This document shows, one piece after another, positions 31,796 to 64,000 of a DNA stretch of 64,000 bases. The notes under the pieces are model-generated. The model was not told the DNA's origin. It was given only the letters and a program-made list of their open reading frames with translations, and did no database searches. Made by a program: the position numbers and the translations under genes. The DNA comes from Dethiobacter alkaliphilus (lineage in GTDB: Bacteria > Bacillota > Dethiobacteria > DTU022 > UBA8154), in assembly GCA_016841605.1 (NCBI GenBank), contig JAENYV010000001.1:231540-295539 (forward strand), given 5' to 3'. Position 1 is the first letter of the stretch. Every line of letters begins with the position of its first letter.

Positions 31796-31842
31796 ATTTG
31801 TTTGGACCTGGGGAAAAGAATGGGTAAATTGGTAAGAATTTC

Positions 31843-31872
31843 TTGACAGCCGCATACATTATCTGTTATATT
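31843..31872 (+). promoter_or_regulatory. Sigma-A-type promoter
   Basis: TTGACA (31843-31848), 18-bp spacer, TATATT (31867-31872). The operator at 31875 begins 2 bp after the -10 box. Confidence 0.7.
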
Positions 31873-31874
31873 TA

Positions 31875-31894
31875 TTATGTCTTATTTGACTTAA
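31875..31894 (+). promoter_or_regulatory. Palindromic operator, 8-4-8 type
   Basis: TTATGTCT-N4-TGACTTAA, overlapping the expected start point of transcription from 31843; consistent with repressor binding. Confidence 0.6.
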
Positions 31895-32009
31895 TGAAAC
31901 CTGGCGTATTCTTCCCCAAAGGGGGCATGCCCATAAATCTAAAAAACGAAAACATCTGATGTGTCCGTAGGGAAAGTAAGAGTTAATTAAGAAAGGAGTG
32001 TTTATTATT

Positions 32010-33203: not shown

Positions 33204-33481
33204 TGACTGTTTCTGATACCGATTCTTCATTCGTTGTTCCCGCTACCGGCTGTAAAAAAGCCTGTATAAATCATATGACAACAACAAGTGTGCAATAGGG
33301 TCTGCGCGGATAGTAAACAAATCTATATATTAACGAGGAAGGCGGCGCCACAGTTGACATGTAATGTCAGTGTGGCTGCTGCTGTAATTACAGGGTTAAC
33401 ATTTTTATCCTGAACAAGAAAAATTTATTAATCTTTAAATAAATTATTTTAAAAAATTATAAGGAGGAGAGGTGATAAGAA
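33204..33481 (+). other. Intergenic region
   Basis: 278 bp between two paralogous genes. A short inverted repeat TGACAT-GTA-ATGTCA lies at 33355-33369. No confident promoter or terminator seen; AAGGAGGAGAGGTGAT precedes the next gene. Confidence 0.4.
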
Positions 33482-34600: not shown

Positions 34601-34642
34601 TGAATTATTTGAATACTTACTTAATGGAGGAGGATAAGATTA

Positions 34643-37957: not shown

Positions 37958-38065
37958 TCTCATATTCTCCAGGCTCTGTTGGATGGATGAAAAAACAAGA
38001 AAGTTATTTTCAGTAAACGAAAGAAAAACCCCCCAGGCGATTGCTCTCCAGCAGCGCACTATTAT

Positions 38066-38099
38066 AAAAAAGCGTGGTGACAATTTCTCACGCTTTTTT
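38066..38099 (+). terminator. A/T-tailed hairpin, probably bidirectional
   Basis: AAAAAAGCGTG (38066-38076) pairs with CACGCTTTTTT (38089-38099). It lies 109 bp after the LRR gene stop. Confidence 0.75.
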
Positions 38100-38192
38100 C
38101 CTGCTAGCGGGGTCCGGTATGTTTTTGTCACCAAGCTAAGCAAAGGGAAATTTATTTTCCCTTATTACAGTGATTAATAGGGAGTGAGCTCA

Positions 38193-39864: not shown

Positions 39865-39921
39865 GTGTAACAAAGCAAGCAATTTTTCGCTGTAGTGTTA
39901 AGAAGAGAAGGGGGAGATTTG

Positions 39922-40731
39922 TTGGAAGAAATTCGTATCAGCCCGATCGGAGCAGTGAAAACCCTGGTGGACGATATTTACGACATGCCTATGGAAGGTG
40001 AAAAGGCGATTGTAGAAATTAAAGATAAGTACATTCCTGCCCTGCAGCGTATCGAAGAAAATTCGCATATCTGGATTATCTGCTGGTTTGACAGGGCTGA
40101 CCGGGACATATTACAAGTTATGCCCCGTATAATTGAACCTGAGCCGTTGGAATTCGGAGTTTTTGCCATACGCTGTTTTTCCAGGCCCAATCCGATTGCC
40201 ATTACCCTTGTTTCCCTGGAAAGAGTAGAGGGTAATCTGCTATATGTCAACGGCCTGGACGCGGTAGAGGGAACACCGGTGCTTGATATCAAGTCTTACT
40301 ACGAACATGATAGTGTTTTTTCACCCAGGACTAGCTACATAAAACCCAAGGACGAGTATGTCCGCCGCAGCCTTATGTACAAGCTGGCTTATCGCCACCA
40401 CGGAAAACGATCAGCTGCCCTGGAAATCGGACTGCGCATCTGCTTGACTGCAGAGACTTATCTCGGTCAGCTGCATAATCCTGCTCTATGCGTATCAGTC
40501 AAAGGCTCCCGGGAACTGGCCGATGTTATCCAGGGTATTACCAGGGCAAGACCGGCTAATCCTCCGCGCTTTTCCTTTTGCGATGCCGGCGGCGATGATG
40601 TCATTTTCACCAAGGAGGGGAAGATACTGAGATTTAGCGTTTTAAAAAGGTTTTCTAAGGAAGAGTTAAAGGACTTAAGTGATGATGAAATATTTTTAAT
40701 GACAGAGGGTTTTGTTGATAGAGGAGAATAA
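39922..40731 (+). CDS. TrmO (TsaA)-FmdE fusion protein, copy 3
   Basis: 269 residues. The TTG start aligns with the ATG of copies 1 and 2 and lies 6 bp after GGGGGAG; the longer frame from 39895 lacks support. TrmO part with NSHIWIICWF, RPNPIA and TPVLDIK; FmdE-like part with RHHGKRSAALEIGLRICLTAE and DVIQGITRARPANPPRF, cysteines absent. It is the first gene of the group containing importer C and the radical SAM fusion, with 41 bp to the permease gene, and it lies behind the double operator. This is the best evidence that these fusions act with a FecCD importer. Confidence 0.78.
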   Translation: MEEIRISPIGAVKTLVDDIYDMPMEGEKAIVEIKDKYIPALQRIEENSHIWIICWFDRADRDILQVMPRIIEPEPLEFGVFAIRCFSRPNPIAITLVSLERVEGNLLYVNGLDAVEGTPVLDIKSYYEHDSVFSPRTSYIKPKDEYVRRSLMYKLAYRHHGKRSAALEIGLRICLTAETYLGQLHNPALCVSVKGSRELADVIQGITRARPANPPRFSFCDAGGDDVIFTKEGKILRFSVLKRFSKEELKDLSDDEIFLMTEGFVDRGE

Positions 40732-40772: not shown

Positions 40773-41807
40773 TTGAACCCTTTTTTAACTAATGAAGCTC
40801 GAAGGCGCGGAGTAAACAGCCTGCTTCTTATCCTGCTCTTGCTGGTCATCATTTTTTTGTTTATCATCTCTTTTGCTCTGGGGCGTTATCCGACGGCACC
40901 CCGGGACCTTCTAACTATGATCGGTTCCCGGTTGTTTAATTATTCTCACGGTTTGCCCGACGTCCTTGAAACAGTAGTTTTTAATGTACGCCTGCCGCGT
41001 ATTATTGCTGCGATAATAGTCGGTGCCGCGTTGTCAGCCGCGGGTGCGGCTTACCAGGGGCTTTTTCGTAACCCTCTGATTTCTCCCGACATTATGGGAG
41101 CTTCAGCAGGGGCCGGGTTAGGCGCAGCGGTAGCCATTTATTTATCGTTGGGGCCGTTGGGTGTGCAAGTGTACGCGTTCATCTTCGGTCTGTCGGCTGT
41201 TATGATTACTTACGGTATTAGCACGCGCATGCGCAGCGATCCCACTTTAAGCCTAATCTTAAGCGGTATCATGATGGGTTCGGTTTTCTCTGCTCTCATC
41301 TGCCTCATCAAGTACGTCGCGGATCCGTTTGAAAAGCTGCCCTCCATCACCTTCTGGATGATGGGCAGCCTGTCGGGGATTAATCCGCCGGAGCTTGCCG
41401 TTACCGCCCTTCCTATTATAGCAGGAACAGCGGTTTTGCTGTTGCTTCGCTGGCGCCTTAATGCCCTAACCTTCGGCGATGAAGAAGCCATGACAATGGG
41501 GCTGAATGTTACCTGGCTGCGGATGGTCATTATTGTCTGTGCTACTTTAGTCACTTCTGCTGCCGTTTCTATCACCGGACTAATCGGTTGGGTAGGGCTG
41601 GTTATTCCACACCTGGCAAGGATGTTAGTGGGTCCTGATTATAAAGTGCTTTTACCTGCTTCGGTGTTGATGGGTGCCATTTATTTGCTCCTGGTGGACG
41701 ATATAGCCCGGCTGGCCAGTTCCCTGGAGATACCTATCGGTATTTTGACTTCTCTGCTGGGCGTTCCGTTCTTCCTGTACCTTTTTTCTCAGCGTAAGGA
41801 GATATGA
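40773..41807 (+). CDS. FecCD/BtuC-type ABC importer permease (importer C)
   Basis: 344 residues, TTG start behind GGGAGTG. About ten transmembrane segments with RLPRIIAAIIVGAALSAAGA, FRNPLISPDIMGASAGAGLG and GWVGLVIPHLARMLVGPDYK. The GPDYK ending groups it with importer D (59007), not with A and B. ATPase gene starts 3 bp after its stop. Confidence 0.87.
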   Translation: MNPFLTNEARRRGVNSLLLILLLLVIIFLFIISFALGRYPTAPRDLLTMIGSRLFNYSHGLPDVLETVVFNVRLPRIIAAIIVGAALSAAGAAYQGLFRNPLISPDIMGASAGAGLGAAVAIYLSLGPLGVQVYAFIFGLSAVMITYGISTRMRSDPTLSLILSGIMMGSVFSALICLIKYVADPFEKLPSITFWMMGSLSGINPPELAVTALPIIAGTAVLLLLRWRLNALTFGDEEAMTMGLNVTWLRMVIIVCATLVTSAAVSITGLIGWVGLVIPHLARMLVGPDYKVLLPASVLMGAIYLLLVDDIARLASSLEIPIGILTSLLGVPFFLYLFSQRKEI

Positions 41808-41810: not shown

Positions 41811-42608
41811 ATGAAGCTGGAGGCTACTAATATACACTGTGGGTATAACAACAAGATAGTGCTTAAAGGCGTGGATCTGAGCGTCAGCACCGGGGAAATA
41901 CTGTGTATCCTCGGCCCGAACGGTTCGGGTAAATCCACGTTGTTCAAGGCTATTCTGGGACTGATTAAAGTTCAAGAAGGGAGGGTGATGTTCAACAATC
42001 AGTCCCTGCTGAAGATGTCCAGGTCGCAAGTAGCCAGGATTATCGGCTATGTGCCTCAGACCCATGATCCGCCTTTTCCTTTTAAGGTAACAGATGTGAT
42101 TTTAATCGGCAGGACTACATACATCGGTACCTTTTCTTCACCGTCAGCCGAGGATTACGATGCTGTCGAGGAGGTGGTAGCTTCTCTTAAAATCGGGCAT
42201 TTGTGCCACAAGGCTTATACGCAGCTCAGTGGCGGGGAAAGGCAACTGGTGCTCATTGCCAGGGCTCTGGTTCAAAACCCCAAGGTTCTGGTCATGGATG
42301 AGCCTACGGCTAGTTTGGACTACGGCAACCAGTTGATGGTTTTAGAACATGTGCAGGAACTGGCAGCCTCCGGCCTGGCAGTGATTATGATCTCGCATAT
42401 GCCGGAACATGCCCTTCTATATTCCAACCGGGCGGTACTGCTGAAAAATGGACGGATTCACGGTAACGGCATCCCGGAAGAAATTGTTACTGAAGACAAC
42501 ATGAAGCTGCTCTATGGCATTGACACTACCATTGCCAGTGTTACCCTCAACAGCGGTCAGTTAATTAAGGTCTGTGTCCCCGAACAAGTAAAAAGCAAAC
42601 GGAGGTAA
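41811..42608 (+). CDS. FecE/BtuD-type ABC importer ATPase (importer C)
   Basis: 265 residues, ATG 8 bp after AAGGAG. Walker A GPNGSGKST, signature LSGGERQLVLIARALV, Walker B VLVMDEPTASLD and switch MISHMPEHAL. Pairs with the permease at 40773. The signature and the DYGNQLMVLEHV segment closely match importer D. Confidence 0.88.
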   Translation: MKLEATNIHCGYNNKIVLKGVDLSVSTGEILCILGPNGSGKSTLFKAILGLIKVQEGRVMFNNQSLLKMSRSQVARIIGYVPQTHDPPFPFKVTDVILIGRTTYIGTFSSPSAEDYDAVEEVVASLKIGHLCHKAYTQLSGGERQLVLIARALVQNPKVLVMDEPTASLDYGNQLMVLEHVQELAASGLAVIMISHMPEHALLYSNRAVLLKNGRIHGNGIPEEIVTEDNMKLLYGIDTTIASVTLNSGQLIKVCVPEQVKSKRR

Positions 42609-42613: not shown

Positions 42614-43747
42614 ATGAAAAAGATATTTAGCATCGCGACCATAACAGTTCTTCTCGTCTGCCTGGTCCTGGGCACCATCGGTTGCGGAGGAGAACAACCG
42701 GCTCAGACAAATCCGGAGGACCGGGCGAATCCAGCGGACAATGCAAATGAGCCGGAGGCCCGGACGATGGTGGATTGCGCCAACCGTACCGTAACCTTAC
42801 CGGAAAAGATCGATAAAGCGTTTTGTACTACACCTATCGCCACGACCATGCTTTACATCCTGGCCCCGGAAAAGCTAGCGGGATGGAACTACGAACTATC
42901 TCCCATAACCAAAAGGTTTCTGCCGGCGGAATATGCACAGTTGCCCAATTTGGGCGGATGGTATATGAACAATACCTGTAATATTGAGGAATTGTTAAAG
43001 TACGACATCGATATGATCTTTGTCTCCTCGCCCACAGACCCCGACATGTGCGACGAAATTTCCACCAAAACCGGCAAACCCACATTTTATATCAATTACC
43101 CTGTTAAGGAATCGGGGACTTTCTTTAAGACCATGGGAACCATCTTGGGGCTGGAAGAAAGAGCCCTGGAGTTGGCGGATTACTGCGACCGGACAGTCCG
43201 GGAGATAGGAGAAAAGGCTGCAACTATACCACAGGACAATCTGGTGACGGTATATTATGCTGAAGGAACCGACGGCCTTATGACCGACCCCAAAGGAACT
43301 ATCGTCAGTGAAGTCCTGGATTACGTAGGCGGTCTGAATGTGGCTGATATTCCCTTCAAGGGCGGCGGAGGGCTGTCTCCTGTCACTCTGGAGCAGATAC
43401 TGAAGTGGGATGCTGAAGTAATCATTACCTGGAGTGTTAACGGTGAAGACCCCGGTTTTCTGGTCAAATATATCATGGACAATAATGACTGGCAAAACCT
43501 CCGTGCTGTCAAAACCAAGCGTGTCTACGAAGCTCCTGCCAATGCTCCTTTCTCTTTCTTCGGGCGTCTGCCGGCCGCCAACCAGATTATCGGTTTCAAG
43601 TGGGCGGGTCAGCTGCTGTATCCGGAGATTTATGATTACAATATTAATGAAGAAATTAAGGAGTTCTATCAACTTTTCTATCATATGGATCTGACGGAAG
43701 AGCAGCTGGACGAAATTCTCGATTTTGCTGATGACCGTTACCGGTAG
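42614..43747 (+). CDS. Metal-chelate-type substrate-binding lipoprotein (importer C)
   Basis: 377 residues, lipobox Cys in GTIGC. BtuF/FhuD-like fold. Shared with importer D: APEKLAGWNYEL, LPNLGGWY (GGWQ in D), a DNDW-LRAVKTKRVYE strand, IIGFKWAGQLLYPE and a C-terminal FYQLFYHMDLTEEQLDEIL. The aromatic-rich GWNYEL/GGWY elements may line the ligand site, which is an inference. It differs from the RWGHP-type proteins of A and B and so may carry another ligand or another form of it. Confidence 0.82.
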   Translation: MKKIFSIATITVLLVCLVLGTIGCGGEQPAQTNPEDRANPADNANEPEARTMVDCANRTVTLPEKIDKAFCTTPIATTMLYILAPEKLAGWNYELSPITKRFLPAEYAQLPNLGGWYMNNTCNIEELLKYDIDMIFVSSPTDPDMCDEISTKTGKPTFYINYPVKESGTFFKTMGTILGLEERALELADYCDRTVREIGEKAATIPQDNLVTVYYAEGTDGLMTDPKGTIVSEVLDYVGGLNVADIPFKGGGGLSPVTLEQILKWDAEVIITWSVNGEDPGFLVKYIMDNNDWQNLRAVKTKRVYEAPANAPFSFFGRLPAANQIIGFKWAGQLLYPEIYDYNINEEIKEFYQLFYHMDLTEEQLDEILDFADDRYR

Positions 43748-43768: not shown

Positions 43769-45574
43769 ATGAGTATTGTTTGTGATATCTGCGAACGTCG
43801 CTGTCATATCCGGGAAGGCGGCCACGGCTCCTGCGGCAACTATATCAATGAATACGGCCGGATTCGTGAGAAATATCTCCACAGGTATCTATTAGTAGAA
43901 CCTACTGCCATTGAAACGGTGCCTGTCTTCAATTATTATCCAGGCACCAAGTTTCTGCAGATCACCACCACAGGGTGCGTGTTCGACTGCAGCGGCTGCG
44001 TCTCAACTGTTTTGGTTAAGGAGATAGATCCTGCCGGCAAAGCCCTGGTGGAACTCAGCCCCGATCAGGTAGTCGATCGGGCAGTAGAAAATGATTGTGC
44101 CGGAGTTGTTTTCCTAATGAACGACCCGTTAGCTTCTTTTCAGACGTTTACCGCGGTGGCGCAAGCAGCCAAGGAACAGGGTTTGATGGTGGGCTTTTCA
44201 TCCAATGGCTATTTTACGGAAGAATCCCTCGCCGCTGTCATAGATTATCTGGATTTTGTCAATATCGGATTAAAGGGCTACGGAGACGAAGTATACCGCC
44301 AGTGCGGTGTGCACAGTTCCAAACCTGTCTATCGAACCCTCCGGTCACTGTATGAGCAGGGGGTGCATGTAGAAGTTTCTTGTATCTACAAACTGAGCAA
44401 CAAAGAAAATATCCTGGCTGCAGCCCGAGAGGTGGCTGCTATTGACCGGACCATTCCCTTTCAGGTGATGCGTTTCGTTCCTTATGAGGATGCTCCGCGC
44501 GGAGAAGAACCGTCCATCCGCCGGGCGGAAGAGCTGGTAAGGGAGATCTCCTCTTTTTTGGACTATATCTATCTATTTAACTCTCCGGGGACCGACCTTC
44601 AGGATACTTACTGTCCAAAATGCGGCCAGGCGGTGGTCAAAAGGGAATACTGGGGGCCCATGGGCGCTCTGGTTCGTTCCAAGCGGTTGCCTGACGAGGG
44701 CCCGATGGTCTGCCCCCGGTGCGGAAAACAGATCGCGATTAAAGGCAAATTCAACTATTGCGACTGCGACAACAGCGACGGAGGCTATTCCTACACCAGA
44801 GCCCTGGAAATTATCGAAGGTATCCTGGTAACCCTCGGCGTGGAGAGCCACCGCAAGGTGGTCCAACTGTGGGAGGAAACATTGGGCGGTCGGACCCTGC
44901 AGGGTTTGTACCGGGATATTCAGGAGACGGAAAATTATCTGAGTGTGGTCCTGAATTACGGTGCTAAAGTAGGTGAACAGGAGAAGGCCGAGCGGATGTA
45001 TTACTATTACCGGAAAAAAATGCAGGAAGTTACATCCAGGCTGGAAGGTGTTACAAGGCGGCCGCGGGTCTACTACTGTATGGGAAAACCATTATACAGC
45101 GTCAAGGCAGAGCGTTTTGAAAATCATATCGTTGAATTGGCCGGAGGCATTAGTTTAAACCGGCTCATGACCGACCTCACAGGCCGTCCGGGTATGAAGA
45201 TTCCCGCTGCCCGTGTGAACGAACTAGAGCCTGATGTAATCTTCTTGTCAGCCCAGTATGCAGGGGCTATTGATGATTTTTATCTGGATTGCCGGGAGGC
45301 GGGTGTAGATGTACCTGCCCTGCATCAAGGGCGGGTATATAATCAGTTGGCTCACGGGTGGGAATATGGCAGCCCCCGCTGGTTGCTGGGTTTATTGCAT
45401 ATGGCCAATTGTCTGCATCCGGAACTCTTCGCTTTTGATATGGAAAAAGAGGCGGACGAATTTTACCGGCTATTTTACGGCATCAAGTATAATCAACAAG
45501 AATTAAACCACTCGTTCAGCAAGCCCAGCACCAAATGGACCTGGCGAGCAATTGACACGTACCGCCGAGTTTAA
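43769..45574 (+). CDS. Radical SAM enzyme (AmrS-like) fused to a BtuF-like lobe
   Basis: 601 residues, no signal peptide. The N-terminus has C5-x2-C8-x3-C12 and C22 in the CxIxxGxxGxC pattern of AmmeMemoRadiSam/PflA-like proteins, then the radical SAM motif CX3CX2C at C70, C74, C77 in TTTGCVFDCSGC. A zinc-ribbon-like YCPKCGQ...VCPRCGK follows (about 288-320). From about residue 390 the protein turns into the backbone helix and C-lobe of a BtuF-type binding protein (RPRVYYCMGKPLYSVKAE, HGWEYGSPRWLLGLL, LHPELFAFD), much like the C-lobes of importers A and B. A binding lobe on a cytosolic radical enzyme suggests that it holds the imported ligand during chemistry. It begins 21 bp after the binding-protein gene. 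A second copy is at 62855. Confidence 0.8.
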   Translation: MSIVCDICERRCHIREGGHGSCGNYINEYGRIREKYLHRYLLVEPTAIETVPVFNYYPGTKFLQITTTGCVFDCSGCVSTVLVKEIDPAGKALVELSPDQVVDRAVENDCAGVVFLMNDPLASFQTFTAVAQAAKEQGLMVGFSSNGYFTEESLAAVIDYLDFVNIGLKGYGDEVYRQCGVHSSKPVYRTLRSLYEQGVHVEVSCIYKLSNKENILAAAREVAAIDRTIPFQVMRFVPYEDAPRGEEPSIRRAEELVREISSFLDYIYLFNSPGTDLQDTYCPKCGQAVVKREYWGPMGALVRSKRLPDEGPMVCPRCGKQIAIKGKFNYCDCDNSDGGYSYTRALEIIEGILVTLGVESHRKVVQLWEETLGGRTLQGLYRDIQETENYLSVVLNYGAKVGEQEKAERMYYYYRKKMQEVTSRLEGVTRRPRVYYCMGKPLYSVKAERFENHIVELAGGISLNRLMTDLTGRPGMKIPAARVNELEPDVIFLSAQYAGAIDDFYLDCREAGVDVPALHQGRVYNQLAHGWEYGSPRWLLGLLHMANCLHPELFAFDMEKEADEFYRLFYGIKYNQQELNHSFSKPSTKWTWRAIDTYRRV

Positions 45575-45638: not shown

Positions 45639-46127
45639 ATGGATCTGTTCAAGGCCGTAATTTATGGACTAACTTTGCTGTTTTTGGGTGTCTCCGCCGC
45701 AAAGGACATTACCAAAACCAAATTGGCTTTGAACAAGGCACTGCATTCTTTCCTCCGTATTCTGCCCGGCTTTTTGGCTACCCTGCTTTTGATGGCGACG
45801 GTACTAACCTTTCTGCCGGCCTCAGTGATAGCAGGACTGCTTGGAGAACGGTCCGGCGTTTGGGGAGTGGCGCTGGCCGCGATAGTGGGCGCCGTCGCCA
45901 CAATCCCCGGTTTTATTGTATTTCCCTTGGCCAGGTCATTATTGGACACCGGCGCGGGACAGTTACAGGTTGCTCTGTTTGTGTCCACATTAATGACTGT
46001 CAGTATTGTTACTGCACCGGTAGAAGCCGGATACTTCGGCCACCGGGCGACCGTGCTGCGCAATACCCTGGCCTTTGCCTACACCTTTGTGACCGCCCTG
46101 GTCATAAGTTGGGTGAATTCTCCGTGA
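45639..46127 (+). CDS. Half-permease, ArsP/DUF318-like, first part
   Basis: 162 residues behind TAGGAGG, with about four hydrophobic segments. The segment AIVGAVATIPGFIVFPLARSL, followed by LLDTGAG, recalls the PF03773-type predicted permeases. Its stop overlaps the GTG of the next gene, also a small membrane protein of the same type, so the two probably assemble as one transporter. Substrate unknown; position after the radical SAM fusion suggests efflux or uptake of a related small molecule or metal. Confidence 0.55.
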   Translation: MDLFKAVIYGLTLLFLGVSAAKDITKTKLALNKALHSFLRILPGFLATLLLMATVLTFLPASVIAGLLGERSGVWGVALAAIVGAVATIPGFIVFPLARSLLDTGAGQLQVALFVSTLMTVSIVTAPVEAGYFGHRATVLRNTLAFAYTFVTALVISWVNSP

Positions 46128-46660
46128 GGGCGGTGCTGCGGCATTACCGCTTTCTATTGGTTGTCCTTTTATTTAATATTATCGTATGCTTGTTAGGGCC
46201 GGCTGCAGGACAGGAAATATTTGTTAGCTCTTTGGCCTTTTCCAAAAAGATGCTGGGAATTATGCCTCCCATTTTCATTTTGCTCAGCCTTTTGGACGTC
46301 TGGTTGCCCAAGGACTTTATGGCACGCTATCTGGGCGGAAAGAACGGCCCGCTTGGTACTATTTTAACCATGGTGTTAGGCTCAGCAGCCTCCGGTCCGC
46401 TCTACGGAGCCTATCCGGTAGCAGCGACCATGCTCAATAAGGGAGCTACCTTTTTGAATGCCATGGTTTTTCTGGGAGCCTGGTCTATCCTGAAGTTACC
46501 CATGGTTCTGTACGAGATCTCCATTTTGGGACTGAGGTTCGGTTTGACCAGGATGCTGGTCAATATTCCCGGGATTGTATTAATTGCCTTCCTGGTTGAT
46601 CGTTTTGTTTCCGGGGAAGAAAAGAATGCGCTTAGCGCCCAATCCATCTATAAAGATTAG
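46124..46660 (+). CDS. Half-permease, ArsP/DUF318-like, second part
   Basis: 178 residues from GTG 46124, which overlaps the previous stop (GTGA). The frame is open further upstream to 45860, but that part lies inside the first half-permease and is not expected to be translated. Hydrophobic segments include LGSAASGPLYGAYPVAATML and MVFLGAWSILKLPMVL, the second-half pattern of PF03773-like permeases. Followed by a strong hairpin. Confidence 0.55.
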   Translation: MRAVLRHYRFLLVVLLFNIIVCLLGPAAGQEIFVSSLAFSKKMLGIMPPIFILLSLLDVWLPKDFMARYLGGKNGPLGTILTMVLGSAASGPLYGAYPVAATMLNKGATFLNAMVFLGAWSILKLPMVLYEISILGLRFGLTRMLVNIPGIVLIAFLVDRFVSGEEKNALSAQSIYKD

Positions 46661-47452: not shown

Positions 47453-48094
47453 ATGTTAAATATTAATGACAACGAGGAAGAAAAATCTTCTTATCATTCT
47501 TTGTTGCCTATATATCCTTTGCTTGCACAGCAATGTGTCGATGACTACCGTCTGGAAAACGGGATTTGCATTGATATCGGCACCGGTAATGGTTATATGG
47601 GAACGGAGATCGCCAAGATTACTCACATGAGTATCTTTTATGTGGATATTGAACCCAAAGGCCTGGAGTTTGCCAGGCATACAGTTGAAGAAGCTAATAT
47701 AGATAACGAGGTATCATTTGTTGAAGCAGATGTTTGCCGACAGCTTCCATTTAAAGATAATTTTGCGGATTTTATTATAAGCCGGGGGTCTCTTTGGTTT
47801 TGGGAAGATAGAGTAAAGGGTATTGCGGAAGTTTACCGGGTGTTGAAAATGGGGGGTAAAGCCCTTATTGGGGGTGGTCTTGGACGTTATCTGCCAGGCT
47901 CCATGAGAGCCAGGCTAATGGAAGGGCGCAAGAACATGCTGGAAAAGAAAGGCGTAAAAAAGCCTTCAGGCAAAGAACTGCAAGATATGGCTTTACAGGC
48001 GGGGATACTCAGTTTTAAAATATTGCGGGATTCGCCGGAACAGAAGACAGGTACCTGGATTGAAATACATAAATATGTGGAAAAAGTGGGGTGA
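47453..48094 (+). CDS. Class I SAM-dependent methyltransferase
   Basis: 213 residues. SAM-binding motif I CIDIGTGNGYMG, the acidic loop after strand 2 (FYVDIEP), motif II-like FIISRGSLWFWED and LKMGGKALIGGG show a UbiE/Methyltransf_11-type enzyme. It shares SRG-(S)-(L/I)-x-FWED and the overall plan with 62259-62876. It heads a tightly packed operon with a cytosolic binding protein, a G3E GTPase and an ABC ATPase, so a small-molecule or chelate substrate is more likely than RNA or protein; not proven. Confidence 0.75.
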   Translation: MLNINDNEEEKSSYHSLLPIYPLLAQQCVDDYRLENGICIDIGTGNGYMGTEIAKITHMSIFYVDIEPKGLEFARHTVEEANIDNEVSFVEADVCRQLPFKDNFADFIISRGSLWFWEDRVKGIAEVYRVLKMGGKALIGGGLGRYLPGSMRARLMEGRKNMLEKKGVKKPSGKELQDMALQAGILSFKILRDSPEQKTGTWIEIHKYVEKVG

Positions 48095-48100
48095 TTCTCA

Positions 48101-48970
48101 TTGGACAAAATTATATTGCATTGTCCTATGAATATAAGCCGGACATTATCGAACATGATCAGAGAGTTTATTCAAAAGGAATATGGTGAGAGCCGGGCTT
48201 TGGAGATTTATGACGAACCTCATCGACTTGGTCAGGAAAGCTCATTATTAAAGACAGTACGTGAGGGGGTAACCCCGGCCTTGTATGTGGGTCATGCCAC
48301 GGACTTTGGTCGGATGCAGCAGAAGCAGGTTGCCGAGTACTTTGAAACAGTGCCTGATTTGCCTCTGGGTTTAAACTTGAAAGAACTGGGTTTTCAGGAT
48401 AACAACCGCTACTTTCATCCGATTACCGTGATTCCTTTTGGGGTGATTTATAACAAAAACCTGGTGGGAAAAGATCAGGCGGAAAAATGGAATGATTTTC
48501 ACACTCCGGAATATAACGGAAAAATCAGGCTTCCGGATCTGGAAAGAACAATTTCCAAAGTAATCGTCGGAGCAATGAGAATGAAGTATCCGGTTACTTA
48601 TGAACAATTTCTTGCTAACTGCTTTTTTAAAGGGAGTCCCATAGATGTCGTAAATTCAGTTGATGAGGGTGAATATCACTATGGGATGGTGAACGTTGCT
48701 TTTGCCCGCTTTTCACGCCTTAAAAACACCGGCATGCTGTGGATGGAAGAGGGAGCCTTCTGTATGCCGCAGGTAATTGCTGTAGGCAAGGGCAAATATG
48801 ACAAGGTTCGTAAGATTGTTGATTACATTTTTTCCGAAGATATCCAGAACTTTTTCGCGCTGCAGGGGTTTATTCCCGCTGTTACCGGTGAGGTTCCGGC
48901 AATCTTGCATCAAGACCGTCTCAAGCTTATCTGGAATGGCTGGGAAGAGTTTTTAAGAGCAACAGCATAA
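48101..48970 (+). CDS. Substrate-binding protein without signal peptide
   Basis: 289 residues, TTG start 6 bp after the methyltransferase stop. The fold resembles family 1 extracellular binding proteins (iron/spermidine type): ITVIPFGVIYNKNLVGKD, LRLPDLE-like IRLPDLERTISKVIVGAMR and VDYIFSEDIQNFFALQGFIPAV near the end. The N-terminus MDKIILHCPMNISRTL is not a signal peptide or lipobox, and no in-frame upstream start adds one, so the protein should remain in the cytosol. No permease gene accompanies it. It may hold the imported ligand for the neighbouring enzymes. Confidence 0.65.
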   Translation: MDKIILHCPMNISRTLSNMIREFIQKEYGESRALEIYDEPHRLGQESSLLKTVREGVTPALYVGHATDFGRMQQKQVAEYFETVPDLPLGLNLKELGFQDNNRYFHPITVIPFGVIYNKNLVGKDQAEKWNDFHTPEYNGKIRLPDLERTISKVIVGAMRMKYPVTYEQFLANCFFKGSPIDVVNSVDEGEYHYGMVNVAFARFSRLKNTGMLWMEEGAFCMPQVIAVGKGKYDKVRKIVDYIFSEDIQNFFALQGFIPAVTGEVPAILHQDRLKLIWNGWEEFLRATA

Positions 48971-49005
48971 TTGAGAGGTTTAGCGATAGAACTGGAAGAA
49001 AGCAG

Positions 49006-49713
49006 GTGTCCTTATTGCGTTTTATTATTGTTACAGGGCCTCCTTCGGCCGGAAAAACTACGGTTATGCTGCATACTGTCCGGCATCTGTTGGCAGATGG
49101 AATCAGGGTGGCTGCCTGTAAAATTGATTGTCTGGAGACGTCCGACGATGAACGTTACGGTACCCTTGATATTCCGGTGGCGGTTGGGCTAAGTGATTAT
49201 TTGTGCCCCGACCATTATTACGCAGCTAATCTGGAAGAAATATATAACTGGGCTGCTGAACAGGCGGCGGAGGTCTTGATTCTGGAAACCGCCGGGCTTT
49301 GTCACCGGTGTGCTCCGGCAGTAAAAGGGTGTCTTTCTATTTGCATGATTGACAATTTAAGCGGCATTGATACCCCGCAAAAAGTAGGTCCGGTTTTGGA
49401 TACGGCAGATATTATTGTCATAACCAAAGGAGATATTGTCTCTCAGGCTGAGCGTGAGGTCTTCCACCAAAGGATTGAAATGATAAATCCGGTGGCTAAA
49501 ATATTGGCAGTAAACGGACTTAACGGGTTGGGAACCCTGCGGCTGAAAAAAGAAATACTATTAAGCTCACCGATCAAACAAATTGAAGGCAAAGAACTGC
49601 GGTCTTCCATGCCTGCAGCTATCTGTTCCTACTGTACAGGTGAAACCATGATTGGCAGCAGTTACCAGATGGGCAATGTAAAAAAAGTTAATTTTGGAAG
49701 GTGGGCTAAATGA
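49006..49713 (+). CDS. G3E/HypB-type GTPase, probable metallochaperone
   Basis: 235 residues from GTG 49006. P-loop GPPSAGKTT (11-19), a Walker-B-like LETAGLCHRCAP with the Glu typical of G3E GTPases plus a CxxC pair, and the base-recognition motif TKGD. G3E GTPases (HypB, UreG, CobW, MeaB) insert nickel, cobalt, zinc or cobalamin. A C-terminal ICSYCTGET gives a second CxxC. It overlaps the next gene (ATGA). The nucleotide fold is certain, the chaperone role is inferred. Confidence 0.7.
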   Translation: MSLLRFIIVTGPPSAGKTTVMLHTVRHLLADGIRVAACKIDCLETSDDERYGTLDIPVAVGLSDYLCPDHYYAANLEEIYNWAAEQAAEVLILETAGLCHRCAPAVKGCLSICMIDNLSGIDTPQKVGPVLDTADIIVITKGDIVSQAEREVFHQRIEMINPVAKILAVNGLNGLGTLRLKKEILLSSPIKQIEGKELRSSMPAAICSYCTGETMIGSSYQMGNVKKVNFGRWAK

Positions 49714-50507
49714 TTAATACCATTACGATTCTGGGGGGGAAAAATAAAGAAGACGAGCCGGAACCGGTTCAGCATTTAGATATTCGGACCGGGGAGATCC
49801 TGGCGGTCGTCGGGCCAACCGGTTCAGGTAAAAGCCGGCTTATCTCGGATATTGAACAATGGGCGGAGGGTGAAACACCTTCGCAGCGTTATGTTCTGAT
49901 TAATAATATCCCGGCTGCTAAATATGCGGAACAACAATCCCTGCGCAAGCTCGTTGCCGAGGTATCGCAGAACATGAACTTTGTCATTGATATGTCGGTT
50001 AGAGATTTTCTCATCTTGCATGCCCGCAGCCGCAAAGTTGACTCTCCGGAAACAGTAGCAGAAGAGGTGGTTATCTATGCCAACAATCTGCTTGGAGAAC
50101 CTATCTCTCCCGGGGACAAACTTGCTGTGCTAAGCGGAGGACAATCTCGCGCCCTGATGGTGGCTGATGTGGCTTTAATCAGTGATGCTCCGGTGGTGTT
50201 GATTGATGAGATCGAAAATGCAGGAATCGATCGTTTGCAAGCTTTACGCTCTCTAACTGTTCAGGGCAAACTAGTCGTGGTGGTTACACATGATCCCGTA
50301 TTGGCTTTAATGGCGGATAGACGCGTGGTAATGAAAAACGGAGGGATAATGAAACAGCTGACGACAACAGCAGAGGAAAAGCTGCTTTTAAAACGTCTGG
50401 CACATATGGAGCGTGAGTTATCTAATTTGCGAGAGAAACTACGTTTGGGGGAGCAATTGCCGGAAAATATTCCGATACTGATCAAAAATACCGAAAATAT
50501 ACCATAG
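49710..50507 (+). CDS. Orphan ABC-type ATPase
   Basis: 265 residues, ATG overlapping the previous stop. Walker A GPTGSGKS, signature LSGGQSRALMVADVAL, Walker B VVLIDEIENAG and a switch His in VVTHDP. The Walker B Glu is in DEIENAG instead of the importer form DEPT. The C-terminus adds a charged helical tail (LLLKRLAHMERELSNLREKL), maybe a coiled coil. No permease gene is adjacent. With the GTPase and cytosolic binding protein it may form a soluble complex; alternatively it may serve a permease elsewhere. Confidence 0.65.
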   Translation: MINTITILGGKNKEDEPEPVQHLDIRTGEILAVVGPTGSGKSRLISDIEQWAEGETPSQRYVLINNIPAAKYAEQQSLRKLVAEVSQNMNFVIDMSVRDFLILHARSRKVDSPETVAEEVVIYANNLLGEPISPGDKLAVLSGGQSRALMVADVALISDAPVVLIDEIENAGIDRLQALRSLTVQGKLVVVVTHDPVLALMADRRVVMKNGGIMKQLTTTAEEKLLLKRLAHMERELSNLREKLRLGEQLPENIPILIKNTENIP

Positions 50508-56507: not shown

Positions 56508-56600
56508 CTTCAGGAAAAAAGTATTCCCATAGAAGGAAAATAAGTCTTTTTGACCGAATATATAACATCATATTACTCTCAAATTAGGAGGATTAAGGTT

Positions 56601-57446
56601 ATGATTGTAGTCCCACAGGAATCGGTTTCCATCAAACCGGTCGGAGTAGTTGTTTCCGATTTTAAACAAGTAAGCCGGACGTTTGACTATAACAGCGAAA
56701 GTATGTTGTACATGAGGGAAGATTTAACCGATGCGCTCATCGGGGTTGAATATTTCTCCCACCTTCATGTTATCTATCATCACCACCGCCGGGAAGACTG
56801 GTTTAAACTGGTTGGGTGGAAGGAAGAAGAGCCCCCTATTACTCTGCCCTTTGCCAGCGAACCGGCTTGCCAGGGTGTATACTCCAACCGCTCTCCATCC
56901 CGCCCTTCAGCCCTGGGGTCCTGTGTGGTGGAACTGCTCCGCAGAGAGAAGAATTGTCTTTACGTTAAAGGACTGGATGCCATCAACGGTTCTCCTGTTC
57001 TGGATATCAAAATATATATTCCCCACTATGATGCTTTTCCTTTAGCCGAGACCCCATTGAACTGGTGCATGGGTCATGATTTGACAACTTCTTCCCGGCA
57101 TTTCCACTGGGATACGATTAATGTCGGTCTTACTCTGGGGCTCCGGACAGGGGCCAAAGCGTTGCAAATCCTGGAGCTCGACCGGGGGGAAGCGCTTAAG
57201 GCCGAGGTTGTGGGCGGGCATTTCTTTGCCCAGGGGATTGAAGGAGCCACCGGATGCGGTGTCCTGAAAGGCAATATGGTTTTTGTGGAGAACTCGCAAT
57301 CGCCCGGAGAGTGGAAGCTGAAGCTGCTAGGTTCGGAGAGCGAGGTGGAAATTACCCTGAAAGACCGGATCTATTCAGGGGCAGGCGAAGTGCTGGAACT
57401 TGAGGATGGAATATTGTTTGCTTCCGTACAAAAAAATCCAAAATAA
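56601..57446 (+). CDS. TrmO (TsaA)-FmdE fusion protein, divergent copy 4
   Basis: 281 residues from ATG 56601, 10 bp after TAGGAGG; the frame back to 56550 has no ribosome site. The TrmO-like half has EYFSHLHVIYHHHRR, RSPSRPSALG and GSPVLDIKIYIP, less like true TrmO than copies 1-3. The FmdE-like half keeps more of the family pattern: HFHWDTINVGLTLGLRTGA and EGATGCGVLKGNMVF, so the TGC-x(3-4)-KGN signature that copies 1-3 lost is present. It therefore may still bind metal. It sits right after the NikABCDE-type importer and before DUF3343. Confidence 0.75.
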   Translation: MIVVPQESVSIKPVGVVVSDFKQVSRTFDYNSESMLYMREDLTDALIGVEYFSHLHVIYHHHRREDWFKLVGWKEEEPPITLPFASEPACQGVYSNRSPSRPSALGSCVVELLRREKNCLYVKGLDAINGSPVLDIKIYIPHYDAFPLAETPLNWCMGHDLTTSSRHFHWDTINVGLTLGLRTGAKALQILELDRGEALKAEVVGGHFFAQGIEGATGCGVLKGNMVFVENSQSPGEWKLKLLGSESEVEITLKDRIYSGAGEVLELEDGILFASVQKNPK

Positions 57447-59006: not shown

Positions 59007-60098
59007 GTGAGCAGACGCATCAGTGCGGAAAAGTACGTAGAAATAATTAAGGACAGCATTAAGGAATACGGGAGCGATCCCCAAAATGAGGAACAGAAGC
59101 TTGCCCGGAAAAAAATCATGCTGCTTGCTTTGCCTGTTTTAACCTTTCTTTTTTCCTTTCCTGTCGGTAGGTATGGCATAGCTCCGGGGGAATTAATCAC
59201 AATTTTGCTGGCTAAGATACTACCCATTCCCCATACCTGGCCTTCGACACTGGATACAGTGGTATTTCAGGTGAGACTGCCGCGGATTATTGCCGCCATG
59301 CTGGTAGGAGCGGCTCTATCCACGGCTGGAGCGGCCTATCAGGGGATGTTCAAAAATCCGTTGGTGTCGCCCGATATCCTGGGGGCTACGGCAGGGGCGG
59401 CGTTTGGTGCTGCCCTGGGCATATATTTTAATTTTGGGATTGCCGGTATCCAATTGTCATCTTTCGTTTTTGGTTTATTGGCTGTGGGGTTGGCTTACCT
59501 GGTGGGCGGAAGAATTCGCCATGATCCTATGCTGGCGTTAGTATTGGCGGGAATATTGATTGGAACTATCTTTTCTTCTTCCACTTCATTGCTGAAGTTT
59601 ATGGCTGATCCTTATGAAAAACTCCCGGCAATTACCTATTGGCTGTTGGGGAGTCTCTCTTCCATCGCGCCGAAGGATATTTGGTTTATTATCGGTCCTA
59701 TGATCCTGGGGTTTGGGCCTCTCTATTTACTTAGATGGAGATTAAACGTTTTATCTATGGGTGAGGAAGAAGCCAAAGCCCTGGGCCTGGAAACAGGCCG
59801 TTTAAGAATTACGGTGATCCTGTGCTCTACTTTGGTCACAGCCGCAGCGGTTTCCATCAGCGGTATGATCGGCTTTGTGGGACTGGTCATTCCACATCTG
59901 ACCCGCATGATTGTCGGACCTGATTATAAGGCGCTGATACCCGCATCAATATTGCTGGGAAGTGCCTATCTCGTTGTGGTGGATGATCTGGCCAGGGTTC
60001 TCACCACAGTGGAAGTCCCCCTGGGGATATTAACTTCGGTCATTGGGGCGCCGTTTTTTATTTATCTGATTTTGCGCAGTAAAGGAGGATGGCAATGA
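59007..60098 (+). CDS. FecCD/BtuC-type ABC importer permease (importer D)
   Basis: 363 residues in the longest frame. RLPRIIAAMLVGAALSTAGA, FKNPLVSPDILGATAGAAFG and GFVGLVIPHLTRMIVGPDYK show close kinship with importer C. The frame starts at a GTG that is part of the Shine-Dalgarno AAGGAGGTG, so translation may begin nearby at a non-standard codon; the polar N-terminal ~38 residues before the first helix are uncertain. Overlaps the ATPase gene by 4 bp. Confidence 0.85.
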   Translation: MSRRISAEKYVEIIKDSIKEYGSDPQNEEQKLARKKIMLLALPVLTFLFSFPVGRYGIAPGELITILLAKILPIPHTWPSTLDTVVFQVRLPRIIAAMLVGAALSTAGAAYQGMFKNPLVSPDILGATAGAAFGAALGIYFNFGIAGIQLSSFVFGLLAVGLAYLVGGRIRHDPMLALVLAGILIGTIFSSSTSLLKFMADPYEKLPAITYWLLGSLSSIAPKDIWFIIGPMILGFGPLYLLRWRLNVLSMGEEEAKALGLETGRLRITVILCSTLVTAAAVSISGMIGFVGLVIPHLTRMIVGPDYKALIPASILLGSAYLVVVDDLARVLTTVEVPLGILTSVIGAPFFIYLILRSKGGWQ

Positions 60099-60901
60099 AA
60101 TTCCGGGTATGCAACGGAAAATGCGGTTATGGCACGACCACGGTCTTACAGGATGTTACTTTTACGGTGGAATCGGGAGAAGTGCTCTGTTTGTTGGGCC
60201 CGAACGGTACGGGAAAGACCACTTTGTTTAAATCAATTTTAGGATTGCTGAAAATTCAGGCAGGAAGCATTGAACTTGATGGCAAGGATTTGTTGACTTT
60301 ATCCCGGGCTCAGATTGCCCGGATGATCGGTTACATACCGCAGGCCCATAACCCTCCCTTTCCGTTTAAGGTCCTGGATGTAATTCTTATGGGGCGGACG
60401 GCTCACCTGGGAGTATTTGCCTCCCCGGGTAAAGAGGATCTGAAAATTGCCGAGGAAATCCTTGATACTTTGAATATCCGGCATCTACGTAATAAGATTT
60501 ACACGAAAATCAGCGGGGGTGAGAAGCAACTGGTTATGATTGCCCGGGCTCTAACGCAGAAACCGCTGATGTTGGTGATGGACGAACCCACCGCTGCCCT
60601 TGATTTCGGCAATCAGCTGTTGGTTTTAAGCCACATCAGGAGATTGGCGGACAGCGGCCTGGGAATTGTGATGGCCTCGCATTTCCCCGACCATGCCTTT
60701 CTTTATTCTACGAAAGTAATATTGCTGAAGTCCGGCGGGTTATATGCTGTCGGAACGCCGGCGGAAGTGATTACGGAGCAAAATCTTGAGCGTCTGTACG
60801 GCGTCAATGTCAAAATTGTGAATACAGGGGTGCAAAACAGCCGGGATAAAAGTGAAGGGAGGGAAATACAAGTTTGTGTTCCGGTTTTGCACGCATCGTA
60901 A
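60095..60901 (+). CDS. FecE/BtuD-type ABC importer ATPase (importer D)
   Basis: 268 residues from ATG 60095 (ATGA overlap with the permease, 6-7 bp after AAAGGAGG). Walker A GPNGTGKTT, signature ISGGEKQLVMIARALT (first Leu changed to Ile), Walker B LMLVMDEPTAALD, switch MASHFPDHAF. Paralog of importer C. Confidence 0.88.
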   Translation: MKFRVCNGKCGYGTTTVLQDVTFTVESGEVLCLLGPNGTGKTTLFKSILGLLKIQAGSIELDGKDLLTLSRAQIARMIGYIPQAHNPPFPFKVLDVILMGRTAHLGVFASPGKEDLKIAEEILDTLNIRHLRNKIYTKISGGEKQLVMIARALTQKPLMLVMDEPTAALDFGNQLLVLSHIRRLADSGLGIVMASHFPDHAFLYSTKVILLKSGGLYAVGTPAEVITEQNLERLYGVNVKIVNTGVQNSRDKSEGREIQVCVPVLHAS

Positions 60902-60949: not shown

Positions 60950-62080
60950 ATGTTGCGGAAAAGTTCAAATTTACTTATGTCGGTATTTCTTATCTTTATG
61001 CTTATTTTAAGTGTGGCTGGTCTTTCCGGCTGCAGCACCCCGGCAACCGGCGGAGAGTCCGGAGGAGAAAACGCTTCGGAAGCTGAAAGTACAACCAGAG
61101 TGATTACTGATGATTTAGGACGTTCCCATACGATTCCCAAAGATATCGACAAGATTTACAGCACAAGCCCGGTTGCCACGATTCTAACATATACGCTGGC
61201 TCCGGAAAAACTGGCCGGCTGGAATTATGAGTTGCGTCCTGCGGATGTCAAATACATTTTACCTGAGTTGCGCAACTTGCCTAATTTAGGAGGGTGGCAG
61301 TCAAAAAGCACAGGAAATATTGAAGAAATATTAAAAGCCGAACCGGATGTGATAGTTTCCATGGGAGATAATCCTAGCGAAACCGATATCTCTTTGGCTG
61401 ATGAAATACAGGGTCAATTGGGAATTCCGGTTATTATGGTCAAGCTGCCCCTGATCGGCATGGACAAGGCGTATGATTTTATGGGCGATTTACTGGGGGT
61501 ACAGGAAAGAGCTGCAGAATTGGCTTCATATTTCCGTCATACCATTGAAGATATTCAGGCCAAAGCGGCAGAAATACCGGAAAATAAAAAAATTAAGGTA
61601 TACTATGCAGAGGGGGCCGAAGGTTTGCAGACAGAACCCAATGGTTCCATGCATATTCAGACCCTGGAGCTGGTGGGCGGTTTGAATGTGGCCGGAGATG
61701 TGGAGGCCGGAGGCAAAGGCGGCCAGAGCCCCGTGTCTTTTGAGCAGGTGCTGGCCTGGGATCCCGATGTGATCCTCTGCTGGAATGAGAGCAGCGGAGG
61801 AGCCTATCAAGAAATCACCACCGATTCCCGCTGGGCGGAGCTGAAAGCGGTCCGGAATAAACAAGTCTATGAAATACCGAGTTCTCCTTATAACTGGTTT
61901 GACCGTCCGCCTTCTGTGAACCGGATAATCGGTTTTAAATGGGTTGGAAATTTGCTCTACCCGGATGTTTACCAATATGATATGATTAATGAAGCCAGAG
62001 AGTTTTATAAGAAGTTTTATCATTATGATCTGACGGAAGAGGAAGCCCGGGAACTGCTGGTTCATTCACTGAGCAAATAA
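60950..62080 (+). CDS. Metal-chelate-type substrate-binding lipoprotein (importer D)
   Basis: 376 residues, lipobox Cys in GLSGC. BtuF/FhuD-like with TTRVITDDLGRSHTIPKD, APEKLAGWNYEL, LPNLGGWQ and IIGFKWVGNLLYP, all matching importer C. It should bind the same type of ligand as the protein at 42614. A perfect hairpin follows its stop. Confidence 0.82.
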   Translation: MLRKSSNLLMSVFLIFMLILSVAGLSGCSTPATGGESGGENASEAESTTRVITDDLGRSHTIPKDIDKIYSTSPVATILTYTLAPEKLAGWNYELRPADVKYILPELRNLPNLGGWQSKSTGNIEEILKAEPDVIVSMGDNPSETDISLADEIQGQLGIPVIMVKLPLIGMDKAYDFMGDLLGVQERAAELASYFRHTIEDIQAKAAEIPENKKIKVYYAEGAEGLQTEPNGSMHIQTLELVGGLNVAGDVEAGGKGGQSPVSFEQVLAWDPDVILCWNESSGGAYQEITTDSRWAELKAVRNKQVYEIPSSPYNWFDRPPSVNRIIGFKWVGNLLYPDVYQYDMINEAREFYKKFYHYDLTEEEARELLVHSLSK

Positions 62081-62258: not shown

Positions 62259-62876
62259 ATGAAAATTGATGCAAAGGACTTTGAAAAAGTAACGAAAAAA
62301 ATTTTGGCCCCTGTTTATCCGGTTATTGCTGAAAATATTATTAAAGAGACCGGAGTCGTCAGTGGTATATGTATCGATTTAGGTGCGGGCCCGGGGAATC
62401 TGGGATTGGAACTTGCAAAACTTGCCTCCGGTTTTAAGGTTATCTTATTGGACATGTCGGAGGAAATGCTTAAAATAGCAGAAAAGAACTGTAGCGACAT
62501 GTTGCTTGCAGATCGTGTATCCTCCTGGAAAGGTAATGTGGAACAATTACCTTTCCAGGAGGATACAGTAGATCTCGTTGTAAGCCGGGGTTCGATTTTT
62601 TTCTGGGAAGATCAAGTAAAAGCCTTAAACGAGGTTTATAGGATACTAAAACCCGGTGGGTATGCATATCTAGGCGGAGGGTTCGGAAATGAAGAGTTGC
62701 TGTCTCAGATCAGGGCGAAGATGAGGGAACAAAATCCCCAATGGGATAATGAGAGGAAAAAGAGAACCGGTAAAGTGGGATTTCTCCATTTTAGCGAACT
62801 TATGAAGAAAACGGTAATACCCCGTTATAAAATTAGTAGAAAGCAGGCTGGACTATGGATAATATTCAAAAAATAA
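62259..62876 (+). CDS. Class I SAM-dependent methyltransferase
   Basis: 205 residues, ATG behind GAGGGG. Motif I CIDLGAGPGNLG, the acidic loop VILLDMSEEML, SRGSIFFWED and LKPGGYAYLGGG. Paralog of the enzyme at 47453. Its last 22 bp overlap the radical SAM fusion gene downstream, so the two are translationally coupled and probably work on the same substrate. Confidence 0.78.
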   Translation: MKIDAKDFEKVTKKILAPVYPVIAENIIKETGVVSGICIDLGAGPGNLGLELAKLASGFKVILLDMSEEMLKIAEKNCSDMLLADRVSSWKGNVEQLPFQEDTVDLVVSRGSIFFWEDQVKALNEVYRILKPGGYAYLGGGFGNEELLSQIRAKMREQNPQWDNERKKRTGKVGFLHFSELMKKTVIPRYKISRKQAGLWIIFKK

Positions 62877-64000
62877 AAAAATGTTATATATGTGCCAGGG
62901 AGTGCAGTATTCAAGAAGGAGGGAGCGGGCAATGCCGTAAATACACTGTACGAAAGGGTCAATTGGTTGAAATTGCACCTGATCAATACCTTGTGGTATG
63001 CTGTATTTCTATTGAGACAATGCCTATGCTGCATTTTTACCCCAAAGGGAAGTTTCTGCAAATAACAACCACCGGTTGCAATTTTGATTGCCCGGGTTGC
63101 ATATCCACCGTTTTGGTAAAAGAGGTGGGGCTTAGCAACATTGCTCTTCAGCATAAGACTGCTGATCAGATAATTAAACAGGCAAAAGAAGAAGAGTGTT
63201 TGGGAATATCTTTTCTGATGAATGATCCGCTTGCCTCATATTTTACTTTTTTAAATGTTGCTAAAAAGGCAAAAAGAGCCAACCTGCTGGTTGGATGCTC
63301 AACCAATGGTGACTTTACATATGAATCTTCACGACTGCTTGCCCCTTATCTGGATTTCATCAATATAGGAATAAAAGGGTTTTCTGATGCTGAATATAAA
63401 AATTGCGGAGGAAATAGTGTTGAGAACGTTCTGGAAAGGATAAGGACCTTTGATAATCACGGCATTCATTTAGAGGTATCATATACTTATAAAAGGGGCA
63501 ATGAGGACGCTATCGAGAATTTTGCCTCATGGCTAAGGGAGTCGGGGTATAATATACCTTTGCAAATTATGCGCTATATACCTCTTGAAGGTGCAGCTCC
63601 CGAGCTTGAACCCACAATAAATGAAGCCGAACATCTGTGCCGGGCATTAAAACAAAAGCTGAACCATGTCTACTTGTTTAATAGCCCGGGAACAGAGTTT
63701 TTAGATACATATTGCCCGGAGTGCGGCAACATATTGATCGAGAGAGATTTTTACGGACCGATGGGGGCAAAGACAAAAAAAATTAATGTTAATAATGATA
63801 GGAAATGTCCAAAATGTAATCATTTAATTCCCATACCGGGCTTGAAAAAAAGAGACGGATATATGGAAAAGGCTTTTGAAGGGGGGTATCCGTTCACAAG
63901 AGCATTAGAAATGATCCAGGCTATCTTAATTGCTTGCGGAGTGAATAAGCTTTCTCATGTTGTCAAAGTGTGGGAGAAAGTTTTAACGGAAAATTATCTG
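62855..64000 (+). CDS. Radical SAM enzyme (AmrS-like) fused to binding-protein lobe, copy 2 (3' partial)
   Basis: 382 codons are visible before the window edge. The ATG lies inside the end of the methyltransferase gene. N-terminal C10, C13, C17 and C27 in the CxIxxGxxGxC pattern, radical SAM CX3CX2C at C75, C79, C82 (TTTGCNFDCPGC), then SFLMNDPLASYFTFLNVAKK and a zinc-ribbon-like YCPECGN...KCPKCNH, all aligned with 43769-45574. The visible end (ALEMIQAILIACGVNKLSHV) matches the linker just before the binding-protein lobe of that paralog, so a lobe is expected beyond the window. No signal peptide. Confidence 0.8.
   Translation, partial: MDNIQKIKKCYICARECSIQEGGSGQCRKYTVRKGQLVEIAPDQYLVVCCISIETMPMLHFYPKGKFLQITTTGCNFDCPGCISTVLVKEVGLSNIALQHKTADQIIKQAKEEECLGISFLMNDPLASYFTFLNVAKKAKRANLLVGCSTNGDFTYESSRLLAPYLDFINIGIKGFSDAEYKNCGGNSVENVLERIRTFDNHGIHLEVSYTYKRGNEDAIENFASWLRESGYNIPLQIMRYIPLEGAAPELEPTINEAEHLCRALKQKLNHVYLFNSPGTEFLDTYCPECGNILIERDFYGPMGAKTKKINVNNDRKCPKCNHLIPIPGLKKRDGYMEKAFEGGYPFTRALEMIQAILIACGVNKLSHVVKVWEKVLTENYL

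Follow-up and report, generated by a model that had tools for sequence, protein, structure and literature searches.

Could a radical SAM (rSAM) enzyme of the cytosol have borrowed the ligand-recognition part of an importer and, if so, for which compound? The question arises from the gene for a fusion protein (RS1) in a 64,000-nucleotide stretch of Dethiobacter alkaliphilus DNA, hereafter called the window, in which a second copy (RS2) begins near the end (Table 1). The first-pass annotation had described RS1 as an AmrS-like rSAM core and a zinc ribbon joined, with no export signal, to the backbone helix and C-lobe of a BtuF-type binding protein, and had suggested direct chemistry on the imported ligand.

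Table 1. Features of the two fusion gene clusters in the window (nucleotide positions) and of the RS1 protein (residues)
Feature	Position	Strand	Remark
TrmO-domain protein	39895..40731	+	heads first cluster; PF01980 5e-27
BtuC1, importer permease	40773..41807	+	FecCD 4e-85
BtuD1, importer ATPase	41811..42608	+	ABC_tran 2e-33
BtuF1, secreted class III SBP	42614..43747	+	SBP of the adjacent importer; Peripla_BP_2 6.6e-17
RS1, fusion protein copy 1	43769..45574	+	601 aa ORF
RS1, AmrS-like radical SAM domain	residues 1-300
RS1, zinc-ribbon-type cysteines	residues 282/285/315/318
RS1, helical linker	residues 338-400
RS1, class III SBP backbone helix	residues 404-424
RS1, C-lobe of class III SBP	residues 430-575
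RS1, conserved tail	N580-S-F
Two half-size ArsP_1 permease genes	45639..46660	+	3' of fusion
Second TrmO-domain protein	56550..57446	+	upstream of second importer cluster
BtuC2 permease and BtuD2 ATPase	59007..60901	+	second importer
BtuF2, secreted class III SBP	60950..62080	+
MT2, SAM-dependent class I methyltransferase	62259..62876	+	directly upstream of copy 2
RS2, fusion copy 2	62855..64000	+	cut by window end

The enzyme half of RS1 shows the CX3CX2C motif and the SAM barrel fold of the radical SAM superfamily. A Pfam search placed PF04055 on residues 65–204 (1.4e-15), and the three cysteines of the motif (C70, C74 and C77) are invariant in an alignment of 45 full-length relatives that contains about 80 invariant columns. 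In the same alignment, C5, C8, C12 and C22 are likewise invariant, as are C282, C285 and C315 of the zinc ribbon, whose fourth cysteine, C318, is >90% conserved. When the full-length model (pTM 0.89) was compared with solved structures using Foldseek, class III binding proteins (SBPs) matched one half and rSAM enzymes of the PFL activase/NifB type matched the other; for the rSAM part, the PFL activase was the closest rSAM structure (PFL-AE, 1.5e-9), with NifB at 1.9e-7. Because the upstream SBP gene stops at 43747, 21 bp before the RS1 ATG, there is no room for a hidden signal peptide. The N-terminus starts at the cysteine motif, the export signal or lipobox characteristic of class III SBPs is absent, and a Shine–Dalgarno-like element, AGAAAGGAG, lies ahead of the ATG.

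The best NCBIfam model was TIGR04337 (AmrS), which aligned with the rSAM core and the C-terminal zinc-ribbon region (residues 3–329) and shares the N-terminal cysteine pattern and CX3CX2C with the fusion. The scores (118.9 and 116.5 bits for the two copies), however, are about half the curated cut-off of 220, and the fusion carries an SBP lobe. Furthermore, no AMMECR1 (AmrA) or Memo (AmrB) gene lies near the window copies, their neighbours being importer, TrmO and ArsP genes. Score and neighbours together rule out membership of the AmmeMemoRadiSam system. AMMECR1- and Memo-like partners, named from sequence by eye, were seen beside a separate rSAM gene of the same genome (C26, L004).

The C-terminal part matched Pfam Peripla_BP_2 over residues 388–524 at 8e-4, below the family cut-off; this and the rSAM-type match are the only Pfam domains in RS1, and a DNA-binding domain is absent. 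Searched as a single sequence against solved structures, the same part hit 4hn9 (2e-6), 2etv (8e-6) and MolA HI1472 (3e-4), and a lobe family profile built from 32 relatives matched 4pag (2.4e-19), 4hn9 (4.5e-17), MolA (8.9e-12) and IsdE (9e-10), compared with 5e-3 for E. coli BtuF. The profile also detected the window's own SBPs, BtuF1 at 54 bits and BtuF2 at 82 bits, in agreement with the earlier suggestion that the SBP of the preceding importer has a comparable C-lobe; the BtuF2 C-lobe matches copy 1 directly as well (E 3.8e-11). AlphaFold modelled residues 338–601 with a pLDDT of 90.7 and a pTM of 0.90, and all 50 Foldseek matches listed for this model in the PDB were class III SBPs (4hn9, 5e-10). 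The two-lobed build of these SBPs is not retained, since the N-lobe is missing and residues 338–400 form a helical linker. A lobe match by chance or composition is ruled out by the profile and fold evidence. These results confirm that RS1 is a cytosolic rSAM enzyme to which an importer-type binding protein has contributed its C-lobe and backbone helix. The label "BtuF-type" stands for the class III fold but not in its vitamin B12 sense: in both profile and fold, MolA and the iron-complex SBPs are closer to the fused lobe than BtuF, and the riboswitches described below are those of the Mo/W cofactors. Besides MolA, the nearest SBPs of solved structure include proteins that bind iron, nickel or heme.

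Does the fused lobe still meet a permease? BtuF docks on BtuC via the conserved glutamates Glu74 and Glu202 (PMC3741162). At the E202 column, whose position was verified against E. coli btuF, 50 of 51 distinct partner SBPs (98%) have Glu, compared with 22 of 54 fused lobes (41%; Fisher 2e-11), and the N-lobe docking site is missing from the fusion along with the N-lobe. M438, R449, E451, P474 and N580, on the other hand, never vary among the fused lobes, and the SBPs mostly have other residues there. R449, E451, G472–G475 and W538, invariant or nearly so in lobes of both bacteria and archaea, occupy loops equivalent to those on the ligand side of SBPs. As far as sequence comparison can tell, the loss of the docking glutamate and the new invariant residues fit a binding module re-used away from the membrane; this is the pattern expected if the lobe has given up contact with the permease and gained a different, strongly constrained pocket or interface. 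The invariant lobe residues may face the SAM site.

We then asked how widely the architecture occurs. A single lobe-profile scan of GTDB species genomes returned 56 loci, about 53 of them close relatives of the fusion, spanning Bacillota, Desulfobacterota, Geobacter and methanogens and therefore several phyla and two domains; the first-pass annotation had proposed a search in other Bacillota and methanogens, and both were found to carry it. The bacterial carriers include Syntrophomonas, Pelotomaculum, Desulfosporosinus, Sporomusa, Acetobacterium, Clostridium, Geobacter, Pelobacter, Desulfovibrio, Desulfosarcina and one Treponema-labelled bin, and the methanogens are Methanoculleus, Methanohalophilus, Methanolinea and Methanocalculus. 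Among 398 sampled genomes of the same phylum, six have full-length fusions, the window's own included. In-frame stops suspected in some relatives were dismissed: the frames that were read there are open across the whole protein, so that the counted stop is probably at the end of the match. In Desulfosporosinus (L031 12958–13956), the fusion gene is followed by a Moco riboswitch and a close rSAM homologue of 333 aa without the lobe.

The second copy, already noted from 62855 onwards, is complete in the genome (607 aa, L002 1474–3297) and 45% identical to RS1. In a quick tree, the methanogen set, together with one Desulfobacula sequence, was separate from the bacterial set. Copy 1 and the metagenome sequence L030 (81%) formed a long branch (0.97), and copy 2 grouped with Acetobacterium and Anaerovorax, far from copy 1. 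A local duplication as the origin of the two copies is unsupported by this tree.

The usual operon in the relatives is btuC-btuD-btuF-methyltransferase-fusion. MT2 accompanies the fusion most often: of 56 loci, 44 have it within 6 kb and 37 immediately upstream. Importer ATPases are near the fusion in 30 loci and permeases in 27, class III SBPs are close in most, and a TonB receptor is added to the importer in some Gram-negatives. RS1 itself has no adjacent MT2 and is divergent in sequence. Recurrent extra neighbours are a DUF364 "heavy-metal chelation" protein, the TonB-dependent receptor, FmdE, ModA, MoeA, TrmO and ArsP halves, and O-methyltransferases and BioB-like rSAM proteins are also among the cluster genes. 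Only the importer and MT2 are constant, DUF364, TrmO and the exporter being missing from many loci. The clustered neighbour families contain no recurrent glycyl-radical enzyme, and among those neighbours that are annotated we noticed no assembly gene of the NRPS, NIS or opine type. For DUF364 proteins, a part in the synthesis of pterin- or flavin-like metal chelators has been proposed, and their genes lie beside ABC importers of metals, molybdate and tungstate among them (PMC2954201).

Several details of the neighbourhoods deserve mention. In two Pelotomaculum loci (L044 and L056), too, the fusion is flanked by TrmO relatives, and both TrmO-domain proteins of the window are extended at the C-terminus by ~140 residues that, judged by eye, resemble FmdE. 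The ArsP_1 half-gene pair recurs close to the fusion gene in L030 and in Methanohalophilus (L065 2915–3936, and L082). A second linked module at window positions 47453–50507 encodes the methyltransferase MT1, an SBP_bac_6 protein, a CobW/HypB-like GTPase and an ABC-type ATPase; its SBP_bac_6 protein has no evident export signal and is fused to DUF1858 in Sporomusa. Parts of this module adjoin the fusion operon in several genomes (module loci L040 14098–15645, L073 17679–19202, L035 4804–7731 and L043 191–3273), so the re-use of binding proteins in the cytosol may be a wider theme.

Which compound does the importer bring in? According to Regulski et al. (2008, PMC2408646), RNAs of the RF01055 family sense the molybdenum and tungsten cofactors (Moco/Tuco) and are found ahead of genes for Moco enzymes and molybdate transporters. 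An Rfam search of 39 bacterial fusion loci (608 kb) found 11 RF01055 elements, about 18 per Mb, against a background of 2.5 per Mb in ten such genomes (95 elements, 38.6 Mb). Five lay on the same strand within 6.5 kb upstream of a fusion compared with 0.24 expected (Poisson 5e-6), a probability that overstates independence because the loci come from few, shared lineages (Syntrophomonadaceae, Geobacter and one Pelobacter-like). In total, a Moco RNA heads the fusion operon in six relatives, of the RF01055 family in five and Moco-II in one. RF01055 heads btuC-btuD-DUF364-btuF-fusion in the S. wolfei-type genomes L039 and L040, btuF-fusion-MT2 in the S. wolfei-type L047, and (DUF364)-TonB receptor-MT2-fusion-btuF in Geobacter (L051 and L055). 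In the Pelobacter-like L037, two Moco-II RNAs head a methyltransferase gene, a ~690 aa gene probably encoding a TonB receptor, and btuF-btuC-btuD-FmdE-type-MT2-fusion. The main text of PMC2408646 contains no mention of radical SAM or TonB (term search). The Pelobacter carbinolicus genome paper described outer-membrane channels near molybdopterin riboswitches and, in a separate remark, three rSAM genes of unknown substrate (PMC3543383).

The Rfam search found no Moco riboswitch in the window and none at either window operon. Three Moco RNAs lie elsewhere in the genome: one precedes a formate dehydrogenase-type gene, one a ModA-type importer and one a group of surface-protein genes. The first of these genes (L091 7247–9943, minus strand) is split into two open frames, possibly via a selenocysteine codon. 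The surface-type cluster, an unusual target for a Moco RNA, follows the riboswitch at G000 C30:328266-328402 (L089 8267–8403) and encodes NHL-like repeats, Shr-like_HID and dockerin/cohesin domains; similar surface genes occur at window positions 30005–39140. The only cobalamin riboswitch seen (L063) comes after a partial fusion copy and before other genes. Vitamin B12 processing is not favoured, given that the riboswitches at the head of the operons are of the Moco and not of the cobalamin kind and that this one cobalamin RNA precedes other genes.

Because the fusion is encoded with an importer and is riboswitch-controlled in several species, it probably handles an imported Mo- or W-linked compound inside the cell, and because Mo/W-cofactor riboswitches head the relatives' operons, the ligand is probably linked to Mo/W rather than to B12. 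Presumably, the same holds in the window's genome. The whole is best explained, in our view and with close to an even chance of being right, by a cytosolic rSAM enzyme whose borrowed lobe serves to process a Mo/W-linked compound delivered by the importer. Half of a class III SBP, namely the backbone helix and C-lobe, would have been taken over as a ligand-recognition module, with the rSAM barrel and helical linker occupying the place of the N-lobe. The compound brought in by the BtuCDF-type importer, which some Gram-negatives supplement with a TonB receptor, would be linked to Mo/W nutrition and might be a Mo/W complex, a chelate or a fragment of a pterin-type cofactor. Once this ligand is in the cytosol, the lobe would still bind it, and radical chemistry, aided by MT2, would modify or open the compound so that the metal or a useful part is freed. 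Direct action of the radical on the imported ligand, as originally suggested, would be the best explanation of this arrangement. A larger claim, which we regard as doubtful, is that anaerobes and methanogens possess an unknown nutrient route in which an imported organic Mo/W compound (a metallophore or pterin fragment) is captured by the lobe and opened by the radical, which would make the enzyme the equivalent, in anaerobes, of siderophore reductases and heme oxygenases.

Could the cluster make a chelator rather than open one? The rSAM enzyme, methyltransferase, TrmO and DUF364 proteins might build a small chelator that is held by the lobe during synthesis, exported by the ArsP-type permease and re-imported loaded with metal. 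The number of modifying enzymes in the clusters (MT2, DUF364, TrmO, O-methyltransferases and a BioB-like rSAM), the role proposed for DUF364 and the ArsP halves 3' of copy 1 all suit this scheme, but the lack of a noticed NRPS-, NIS- or opine-type gene among annotated neighbours and the many loci without DUF364, TrmO or an exporter make it unlikely. We consider it somewhat more unlikely that the architecture and role are as proposed but the ligand is a corrinoid, heme, iron siderophore or other metal complex, depending on the lineage. Binders of heme, B12, iron and nickel do occur in this importer class and among the best SBP fold matches, the distant copies 1 and 2 may differ in ligand, and the window operons have no Moco riboswitch; the enrichment of Moco riboswitches at the operons, the ModA, MoeA and FmdE neighbours and the position of the sole cobalamin riboswitch argue the other way.

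The lobe might also act as a sensor or carrier that, when ligand-bound, switches the radical enzyme or a partner, the rSAM substrate being another molecule or a protein, as for glycyl-radical activases. The PFL activase is indeed the nearest rSAM fold, and cytosolic class III SBP sensors have a precedent in the Btr transport regulator family of NCBIfam. Btr-type regulators (NF049932), which from the family description we take to be transcription factors with an AraC domain and Peripla_BP_2, resemble the fusion in tying a cytosolic class III SBP domain to an importer. The fusion, however, is an enzyme without a DNA-binding domain, and with no recurrent glycyl-radical enzyme among its clustered neighbour families a sensor seems very unlikely. 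Least credible of all is a lobe that is a structural leftover without ligand binding: the N-lobe is lost, and so is the docking glutamate in most members, but such a remnant would hardly keep its ligand-side loop residues nearly invariant from bacteria to archaea.

Returning to the processing of an imported Mo/W-linked compound, we compared the fusion with known systems. The fusion shares the backbone helix and C-lobe with class III SBPs of the BtuF/FhuD/MolA type but differs from them in being cytosolic, joined to an enzyme and devoid of the N-lobe, with the docking Glu mostly lost. With the Moco/Tuco riboswitch regulon, the common ground is the six relatives' operons headed by RF01055 or Moco-II, the window itself having no such riboswitch. 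The unfused AmrS-like rSAM proteins behind BtuCDF- or Mod/Wtp-type importers are a sister system without the lobe: their rSAM part (L003, L012–L023) is about 33–35% identical to that of the fusion, most sampled members adjoin BtuCDF-type importers, and the nearest one in the window's genome directly follows ModA-type, ModB-type and WtpC-like genes. These unfused genes (L003 1489–3637, G000 C30:207581-209729; L012–L023, L028 and L029) are mostly followed by a gene for a ~390 aa protein, which had no Pfam or NCBIfam match in the one member searched.

No curated Pfam or NCBIfam family names the fusion, and it is undescribed in the open full-text (non-subscription) literature searched, where we found no joint description of rSAM chemistry, a cytosolic importer lobe and a Mo/W-cofactor riboswitch. 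Thus, both halves are of known kinds, and it is their combination and genetic setting that look new. The partner SBP offers a simple route to fishing out the ligand. If the proposed reading is true, the fusion would open three questions to genetics: whether organic carriers of Mo/W are used by anaerobes, how these carriers give up their load when oxygen is absent, and which substrate an AmrS-like enzyme has.
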